Assembly (NCBI GenBank): GCA_018292915.2 | Contig: JACVVK020000197.1 | Coordinates: 584,001-648,000 of the forward strand | Source of the DNA: Batillaria attramentaria | Lineage: Eukaryota; Mollusca; Gastropoda; Batillariidae | DNA length: 64,000 bases | Direction of reading: 5' to 3' | In this document: piece after piece, positions 6,201 through 52,407 of the stretch | Position numbering within the stretch: position 1 is the first letter of the stretch | Layout: each line of letters begins with the position of its first letter | The notes under the pieces: model-generated | What the model was told of the DNA's origin: nothing | Database searches by the model: none | What the model saw: only the letters and a program-made list of their open reading frames with translations | Program-made: the position numbers and the translations under genes

Positions 6201-9200
6201 GCACAATTTTCTTATTTTTTGTGTGACTAGAAGTGACTATTGTAAATATGAAGATACCATTCAATATCTACTGCATGCAGTCGGTTTTTTTGGGTTTTTT
6301 TTTACACTGTTTTGTGTGTATAGTTATGAATATTTGCACCCAAATTATCAAACCTTTAAACGCCCTCTTCCATCACCTCACAGCTCCCCTCACACCCCCC
6401 ACCCACCCACCCATCCACCCATCCACACACACACACACACACACACACACACACACACAGACACACACACACACTTACTTGTTTCATTTTCTCACTGTCA
6501 GACGTTGTGATAATACATGTACTGTAGATACACTTGTACTTGAGTACACAGATGAGTTTGAACCACACTGGATGTAACATTCTCTGTGCAGTCTTCATGT
6601 TACAGTGTTACGAAATAAGCCAGTTAGTTTACACTTCCTAGCTTGATGTGTGGCTGTGATTGGGACACAACTACAATGAGTTTGAGTGTCACTATGGTAA
6701 ACTTACACCCCTGTCTTGTACATGTGAGTTTACCATAGTGATTACTCATTATAGTTGTGTTGTGCTTACAGTTTATACTGACATGAACAAGCATATACTA
6801 AGGATTAAGCTGACAAATGAAAGACATGTTTGGATGTACTCACATACAGGTCAAGGTGTCGGTGAAGCGTCTTCGGAAATACTTTGGCGCACCTGTCAGT
6901 TTCGGTGATCGTAACTCCAGTGACGGGAAACAAGGCTTCATTGAGTGTGTGTCATATGAAGACAAGAATTTTGATCTGAAAAAGTTGGAGCTCACAACAG
7001 CTACACAGGTTGGTTCACGGACGCACTCAGTGTTTTTTGGTGCGTCAAAGTAAATGCAAAGTATGCTTCTTTTTATTGTGTAGTACCGGTAGTCGGTGTA
7101 TACAGGCTGTTTGCGAATATGACTTTTCTCCTAGTGTCAGACAACAGAACAACAGTGCACACCATTTCCCAGTTTCTTTTTGACATCAGAACAACAGTTG
7201 TAACCAACAGGAGTTTAGTACTACACTAGTCTTTCCAGGTGGAACCGGAGCCTCACTTGGCGTTGTCTTAATACGCGTTAGTGTGGGTCTATCTGGGGAT
7301 GAATTGCTGATGGTTTTTTTTTCTTTCTTATATTCATTTATGATGTAATATATGTTTTTCATTGGCTGTGCAAGCCTACCTAGCATAATGAAAGTGATTC
7401 ACAAAACACAGTCATTACTTCCCCTCAACAAAGAACCACTTTGAGATATTCTGCAACCCGCAAAATTACAGGGTAAAATCCCATCCCATCTGTTTTGGTA
7501 TGCTGGACATAGACAGGTTAATTTCACTAATTTCTCTTCTTGTGTTTGCATGTGCATGGTACATGGTAACATTAGAAGTGTTGTGCATGTATGTGTTAGG
7601 CTGTACCAGACGTGAAGGACATTGGTACACAGACCGACTGGAAGTACCCGCGTAATGCCAACACACAGTATTATCCACGGGAATTCACCGCTCGAGAGCT
7701 GGAAGAAATTGAAAACTCGGAAAAACTTGCTAACTTCATGAAAACTGTGGAGCCCAGGTAATGTTTGTGATGTTTGTGTACATGTGTAATATATGGGTTG
7801 TTTCCTACTAGGATTATGCACTGCTGCTAATGCACAGACAGTTTCTGTCGTGGTGTATGAGAGCAAAGACTGTAGATATTATGTAGATATTCTTTGATGA
7901 GAGCAGGTAGAATCTGACTGCACAGCATATTTCTTTGGAGTAAAATACATGTTGTAATAAAATACAACTGTAGGATAGTGAAACAGTAGTGGGAAGAGTT
8001 TTGCTTGCATATTATTATTAATTTGCAGGATTTGTCTTTCCGATATCAAGTTTTTCTTTCTGTGTTCCCCTTTTATGAGTTAAGTGAGGATTACTTTTTG
8101 TTGTTGTTTGTTTTGTGTGCGTGTTTGTAATTTTTCCCTGCTCATTGTTCTGCATGCAGTCACGGGTTAATTGTTTTTATGTCAGGTTTGAGCTGGCTCT
8201 GCAGCAGAATGCGATCATGGACGTTTTCTACGATGACTGGGTCAACCTGGGTGATGCGGACAGTACGTTTGGAAGCAAGGCAGATAATCACCTGAAGGTA
8301 CGACATGAAACTGCCACACATAAAACATCATGTTACCCCAGGTCCAAGATGGTCCAAGATAATTGGAGACATTCTAATACTCTCACATTTGCAGATCAAC
8401 ATATAAGCCTGACATTGATCTCTTAGTTTACTGTATGTCCATACATGAAGAATTACCTGAGTGTTCTCATGTATGTTATACAATGCTCTTGTGTTCTTAT
8501 CAAAGATCTTAGGGTCAAATATCGGTGCCAGGGGGAAGTTTGTTCCATCAGAACAATGTGTTCTTCCCAGTGGGAGAACGTGCGTAGTTGTGGTCAGTAT
8601 TGCTTGTATTGAAAAGCTAACAGGAAGGAATAGAAATTGTGTGAAAAATTCCTGGAATCTCGAGACAGAAATGTAGTAAGCACCCTGATGGAAACTTCTC
8701 GTCGTTGAGGTGAGAATGCACTGTTTTTGTTGTGTTTTTACAGGAGTACCAGTCTTTCACGGACCTACAGTTCAGTAAAGACAAAACCATCACCTGTATT
8801 CAGTGGCACCCCACGATCAAAGGTCAGTCAAACCCATGTGTTAATTGTTGCGTTGGTCAGAGTGCCTGCTGGATCATAACGCTTCAAACAGTGGCACCCC
8901 ACGATCAAAGGTCAGTCAAACCCATGTGTTCATTGTTGCGTTGGTCAGAGTGCCTGCTGGATCATAACGCTTCAAACAAATAGCAGATAGTGATCTGCAG
9001 CAGTGGAAAGCACTTCACTTTCAAGCTAAAGGGAGCAGCATTCTGGTGTGGTTCCCATGCATATACATGTACCAGTACACTTCAGACTGAAGCAAGAGAA
9101 AACTGTGTGTCATCTCCAGGTGTGGTGGCCGTGTCCATAGCGGAAAGGCTGTCATTTGATGAGCGTATTGACCAAGCTGCTAGAGTCATCATGACACCAT

Positions 9201-52407: not shown

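Follow-up and report, generated by a model that had tools for sequence, protein, structure and literature searches.

Mirage-like tandem repeats at splice junctions of Batillaria attramentaria look like ordinary duplications tolerated by splicing

Introduction

Why should tandem repeats sit astride the edges of coding exons? The question is raised by a stretch of 64,000 nucleotides from the gastropod Batillaria attramentaria (C197:584001-648000, hereafter the window), which holds DNAI3, one sulfotransferase gene and two tandem DEP-DUF547 genes, and in which eight repeats each carry an exon edge together with its splice site. By anatomy, as far as sequence can tell, these repeats are the same as the mirages of lancelets, i.e., tandem repeats that span an exon-intron boundary, and they bring mirages to a new phylum. 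A preliminary description of the window suggested that junctions may be preferred seeds for tandem expansion, or else that expansions are tolerated there since the outermost sites still splice, and it pointed to intron gain by duplication of AGGT-containing exon segments. We favor, with a probability of about 0.7, the explanation that random tandem duplication creates mirages and that the spliceosome joins the innermost pair of sites flanking an exon; no preference for splice sites seems to be needed, and the arrays look like ordinary duplications tolerated by splicing.

Results

Anatomy of the repeats

All eight repeats are present, as judged by reading the sequence at each of them and by Tandem Repeats Finder (TRF); seven involve a donor site and the eighth an acceptor site (positions are those of the window).

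8801..8978, plus strand: A1, donor mirage in DNAI3; 88 bp in 2.0 copies, carrying the last 22 nt of exon 8744-8822 and the donor
9219..10415, plus strand: A2, donor mirage in DNAI3; 40 bp in 29.9 copies, carrying the last 26 nt of the exon ending at 9244 and the donor
12659..13276, plus strand: A3, donor mirage in DNAI3; 44 bp in 14 copies, carrying the last 42 nt of the exon ending at 12700 and the donor
14812..14898, plus strand: A4, direct repeat in DNAI3; 20 nt with the donor of the exon ending at 14824, the second copy 67 bp further on
34417..36432, plus strand: A5, donor mirage in the sulfotransferase gene; 83 bp in 24.2 copies, carrying the last 15 nt of the exon ending at 34431 and the donor
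36689..37040, plus strand: A6, donor mirage in the sulfotransferase gene; 40 bp in nine copies, carrying the last 14 nt of exon 36661-36702 and the donor
50569..50840, plus strand: A7, donor mirage in a DEP-DUF547 gene; degenerate copies from the exon end at 50583, then 32 bp in 5.8 copies at 50657-50837 (TRF)
51825..52305, plus strand: A8, acceptor mirage at the last exon (start 52282) of the DEP-DUF547 gene; 48 bp in 10 copies, carrying the first 24 nt of the exon

The description of all eight as tandem arrays touching an exon needs some correction. Six are TRF arrays that span the boundary, reaching 14-42 nt into the exon; A7 does so only via its degenerate first copies, and A4, being a 20-nt direct repeat, is not tandem and received no TRF call. 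Taken singly, each repeat is beyond chance.

As in mirages, the AG or GT is kept in many copies. Donors were scored with a generic consensus matrix of our own making that was not trained on Batillaria attramentaria, and the counts refer to the decoys found. The single A1 decoy is identical to the real donor and retains its GT, as does the single decoy of A4. GT is kept in 28 of the 29 decoys of A2, in 13/13 at A3, in 23 of 24 at A5, in 7/7 at A6 and in three of four at A7; the corresponding numbers of decoys that equal or exceed the real donor in score are 24/29, 12/13, 22, 7/7 and 0/4. All 10 copies of A8 have their AG. The copies thus look like working sites, but their use would mostly break the protein frame, as only one of the 11 anchored arrays at all loci has a period divisible by three (eight and two periods leave remainders of 1 and 2, respectively).

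No copies appear in the proteins compared. The alignment of human DNAI3 spans all four DNAI3 junctions and includes no residues from the repeats, apart from a gap of one residue close to the fourth junction, and no insertion was seen at these junctions in BaRGS_017007 (a predicted protein of B. attramentaria), in the Babylonia and Nucella proteins, or in two further proteins. At the A7 junction, the DEP-DUF547 protein has no insertion relative to six proteins (five from snails, one from a lancelet), and at the A8 junction none relative to five of the six relatives, Pomacea P0009 being without that part. Support at the sulfotransferase junctions comes from paralogs. A separate observation concerns Nucella lapillus DNAI3 (P0245), which has a tandem duplication of nine residues (KDKTITCI plus one) inside the exon whose donor bears A1 in Batillaria.

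A8 may alternatively be coding sequence, because its intron (51796-52281) is open through 162 codons, stop-free and in frame with both exons. Against that possibility, the copies differ by amino acid-changing substitutions, and the repeat is absent from the five relatives in which the region is present. Retention of this intron would add roughly nine copies of a 16-residue repeat to the protein.

Arrays and junctions under random placement

The comparison sample consisted of 20 sulfotransferase stretches and six dynein heavy-chain stretches; L033, an allele of L032, was left out, yielding 25 independent loci with 134 exons. Exons were annotated with 120 sulfotransferase proteins and, for dynein, from dynein paralogs, and the null model placed arrays at random 10,000 times. 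Not counted were L009 (no annotated exon), dynein matches of <44 bits or judged to be derived from repeats, two sulfotransferase matches, and arrays with a period of <16, a score of <50, or low-complexity units.

The suggestion that junctions are preferred seeds found no significant excess in its favor: 5 of 34 arrays in the independent loci were anchored on a junction, compared with 4.18 expected (p=0.41), and a single event common to paralogs probably accounts for two of the five. One dynein exon, L032 5764-5808, is below the score cut and was added by hand since its donor bears an array; without it, the count is 4/34 versus 3.89 expected (p=0.56). Restriction to periods of at least 25 gave 5/23 versus 3.5 (p=0.27), and a further requirement for a score of at least 150 gave 5/19 versus 3.2 (p=0.21). 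An earlier exon list, the sulfotransferase part of which was replaced by the 120-protein annotation, had yielded 3/34 versus 2.5 expected; after the addition of four exons once two arrays had been seen, it yielded 5/34 versus 2.6 (p=0.10) and, for periods of at least 25, 5/23 versus 2.1 (p=0.046).

Annotated exons neither contain nor are swallowed by any array, whether all 51 arrays with the window included are considered (5.4 expected, Poisson 0.005) or only the 34 of the independent loci (3.3 expected, 0.035). Similarly, no array edge falls in the 9.4 kb of deeper exon, where 3.2 were expected (0.04). In the exon margins (outer 60 nt), array edges occur at 0.57/kb, compared with 0.27-0.42/kb in non-coding DNA, a ratio of 1.65 (p=0.11). 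Duplications thus occur at exon ends about as often as in non-coding DNA, but seemingly not in exon bodies. Genome-wide (715,342,989 bases, 863 contigs), pairs of the donor motif AGGTRAGT 24-54 bp apart number 1027, compared with 774 for the reversed motif, a small excess for which a local count in the non-window loci (13 versus 15) is too small to give a single-motif baseline.

Birth and turnover of arrays

L032 and L033 are alleles, with 95-98% identity in long blocks and 86-95% in some shorter ones. In L032, a segment of 118 bp is duplicated that includes the donor of a dynein exon and the 18 exonic nt before it. L033 has a single copy of this segment, and reading by eye revealed no microhomology at the ends of the duplication. 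This duplication is a mirage at birth, and its two copies versus one constitute the difference in length between haplotypes that is seen in mirages. The same alleles differ in an intronic array (10 versus four copies of 47 bp) and in a 41-bp unit that is present in 19 copies in one and singly in the other. In L032, a 30-bp repeat of 2.3 copies (5817-5886; the gene is on the minus strand) also abuts the acceptor of the exon whose donor is duplicated. No second haplotype of the window was found with the two window queries tried. Elsewhere in the assembly, C249/C151 were checked and confirmed to be haplotypes kept separately; equal or near-equal match scores suggest that C501/C234, C484/C513, C159/C245, and C100/C378 are retained haplotypes, and C7/C90 and C21/C377 look like paralogs.

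Arrays also differ among paralogs. Sulfotransferases L014 and L018 have a donor array that is absent at the same exon in L017 and L020, and L025 has a donor array of 85 bp in 2.4 copies that reaches 46 nt into the exon. The dynein locus L035 has an acceptor array of five copies of a 64-bp unit, of which 37 nt is exonic and the copies would shift the frame. The second DEP-DUF547 gene of the window offers the same comparison for A7 and A8.

55384..60215, plus strand: tandem paralog of the DEP-DUF547 gene; its exon ends match those of A7 and A8, without arrays there

A candidate intron gain

That the arrays are by-products of intron gain through tandem duplication of AGGT-containing exon segments is quite improbable as a general account, and at most one intron, the one that bears A6, fits it.

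36703..37187, plus strand: A6-bearing intron, candidate intron gain; its two ends are similar, ATGTTACAGAGAG being followed at the 5' boundary by GTGAG and ATGTGACAAAG at the 3' boundary by GTGAG

This intron is absent from 19/19 sulfotransferase paralog genes in which the exon is fully covered (the twentieth, L025, is masked there, and L017, among the 19, is partly out of frame). It also has the highest junction-pair similarity of the 27 window introns, with a score of 8.5 that 1.1% of mismatched pairs attain; a few intron ends in this set are off by one or guessed, and first rank among 27 is modest evidence. We suggest that intron 36703-37187 may have been born by duplication of an AGGT segment. 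Even here, however, intron loss in the paralogs is possible, because another intron of the same sulfotransferase gene (37346) is missing from them too.

The introns at 34432 (A5, at a position common to sulfotransferase paralogs), 50584 (A7), and 51796 (A8) exist in paralogs without arrays, and the array there therefore probably came later; among the seven repeat-bearing introns besides 36703-37187, similarity between the two junctions is unremarkable, with scores of 4.0-5.0. With respect to an introner-like spread, the unit of A5, the one of the eight repeats that was searched, was found in its own array only (24 matches) in a search that skipped common words.

Other features of the window

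DNAI3 was identified by its match to human DNAI3 (8j07_k1; E 2e-230). Among the matches listed, most relatives of the DEP-DUF547 genes also contain glutaredoxin. A lancelet origin of the DNA, to which the mirage literature pointed, was rejected, as the best protein relatives are from snails: the nearest named snails have 70-82% identity, compared with 62% for Branchiostoma belcheri. Within a sulfotransferase intron, the minus strand carries a retroelement in antisense orientation (38603-42926) that has RNase H and integrase domains as well as matches to reverse transcriptase. Between 20527 and 30544, a short cysteine-rich unit recurs in several predicted exons, perhaps as a small tandem gene family; one cysteine-rich exon there has a sub-threshold match to a prokaryotic-type phospholipase A2.

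Discussion

Origin of the mirages

Under the explanation that we favor, a mirage would start as an ordinary short tandem duplication of ~30-130 bp that has one end in the intron and one in the exon; in the 11 arrays measured, the exonic end is 14-46 nt from the exon edge. The duplicated unit would then expand or contract as any minisatellite does. The spliceosome would pair the acceptor and the donor that lie closest across the exon (exon definition), leaving further copies intronic, and duplications within an exon or swallowing it would be removed. We infer both the duplication mechanism and exon definition as the reason why the innermost sites win from the sequences compared. Innermost-site pairing fits arrays at both exon ends (acceptors at A8 and L035 as well as donors), periods that break the frame, and proteins that are free of copies. 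Site choice on a first-come-first-served basis was considered and set aside, as it would explain the donors but fails for the acceptor array of L035. The idea that selection tolerates expansions at junctions therefore stands insofar as no copies reach the proteins and no arrays lie in or over exons; the site that is kept, however, seems to be the one adjoining the real exon, i.e., the innermost and not the outermost.

Several points weigh against this explanation. Within the window, 6 of 17 TRF arrays are anchored, compared with 1.98 expected (p=0.011), albeit post hoc in a window picked for the trait; pooling the window with the independent loci gives 11/51 versus 6.2 (p=0.034), 11/36 versus 5.2 (p=0.0095) at periods of at least 25, and 11/29 versus 4.6 (p=0.004) if the score must also be at least 150. 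Donor events outnumber acceptor events by 10 to 2 (p=0.04) when all window repeats are counted and by 8 to 2 (p=0.11) for TRF arrays only, a surplus that the choice of an innermost pair does not predict by itself. Decoys often equal or beat the real donor, as at A2 and A3, and simple competition would not favor the real site. The exon annotation covers genes with known relatives only, and splicing is judged from proteins, with BaRGS_017007 itself being a prediction. A mild preference for junctions would be in keeping with the counts. The competing proposal is that junctions, and donors above all, are preferred seeds of duplication, for example via transcription-coupled damage or U1-bound RNA at the donor. 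It draws on the window and pooled counts, on the higher edge density at exon ends, on the genome-wide pairs of donor motifs, and on the donor surplus, but the independent loci, where anchoring is close to expectation with or without the hand-added exon, do not bear it out, and the window was chosen for the very trait. We regard preferred seeding as unlikely, yet not so unlikely as to be dismissed, because one of the independent cases depends on an exon added by hand and because the pooled counts reach significance under the stricter cuts; the same considerations keep our confidence in random duplication with innermost pairing from being higher.

False tandem copies created by assembly would be another source of such arrays, given that this highly heterozygous genome was assembled from PacBio Sequel reads and that some loci occur twice. 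An artefact is nonetheless hardly credible: the copies differ among themselves, the arrays extend to 2 kb, alleles L032 and L033 are coherent alternative states, and paralogs L014 and L018 have an array in common. On random duplication and innermost pairing, junction-spanning duplications might also be a standing, allele-level source of gene structure, in which most are neutral decoys that exon definition keeps intronic, and occasionally a copy becomes a 3' splice site and creates a new intron, as in 36703-37187. We put this forward tentatively, as a possibility that we would not yet bet on.

Comparison with known systems

If our reading is correct, a lancelet curiosity is carried to another phylum, and an anecdote becomes a phenomenon that can be counted. 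Exons with up to 29 decoy donors, many of them at least as strong as the presumed real donor, would be natural tests of how the spliceosome chooses among equal sites, and alleles with and without a junction duplication would make the fitness and splicing costs of a proposed first step of intron birth directly measurable.

Human IFI6 (6-16) has a minisatellite that provides multiple donors, its 12-bp units being used as alternative donors. In human segmental duplications, minisatellites with units of ~30 bp, some of them at exon-intron boundaries, can reportedly give rise to new introns (PMC2812944). According to the passages available from that source, half of these internal tandem repeats are coding and most such intron changes are accompanied by a transcript that keeps the repeat, whereas the Batillaria copies appear to be wholly intronic. 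Among gastropods, the abalone TSSK1-like gene has a polymorphic 27-bp minisatellite in an intron (PMC6905558); the passages seen make no statement that it spans an exon boundary, as the Batillaria arrays do. The Rogers model of intron gain by tandem duplication of AGGT segments (PMC3087553), for which there is a case in the potato RNA-dependent RNA polymerase gene (PMC4974935; both as given in the parts consulted), is alike in that a duplicated AG/GT provides the splice sites; it is unlike most of what we describe in that the introns of A5, A7, and A8 exist array-free in paralogs and only 36703-37187 fits.

The closest parallel is with the lancelet (amphioxus) mirages, found in Adh3, troponin C, the globins BflGb6 and BflGb9, and PGBD5 (PMC3087553, PMC3902484). 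As reported in the portions of these papers available to us, many copies retain AG/GT, haplotypes differ in copy number, and splicing is undisturbed; those portions deal with few genes and contain no test against chance. No mollusc case was recognized in our literature searches on mirages, minisatellites, tandem repeats, and splicing, for which subscription papers were mostly beyond reach. Batillaria differs from the lancelets in being a mollusc with eight repeats in 64 kb and five arrays elsewhere, at periods of 32-127 bp, and to the lancelet record it adds a test against chance, a pair of alleles of which one has the duplication and the other lacks it, and a single candidate for intron birth.
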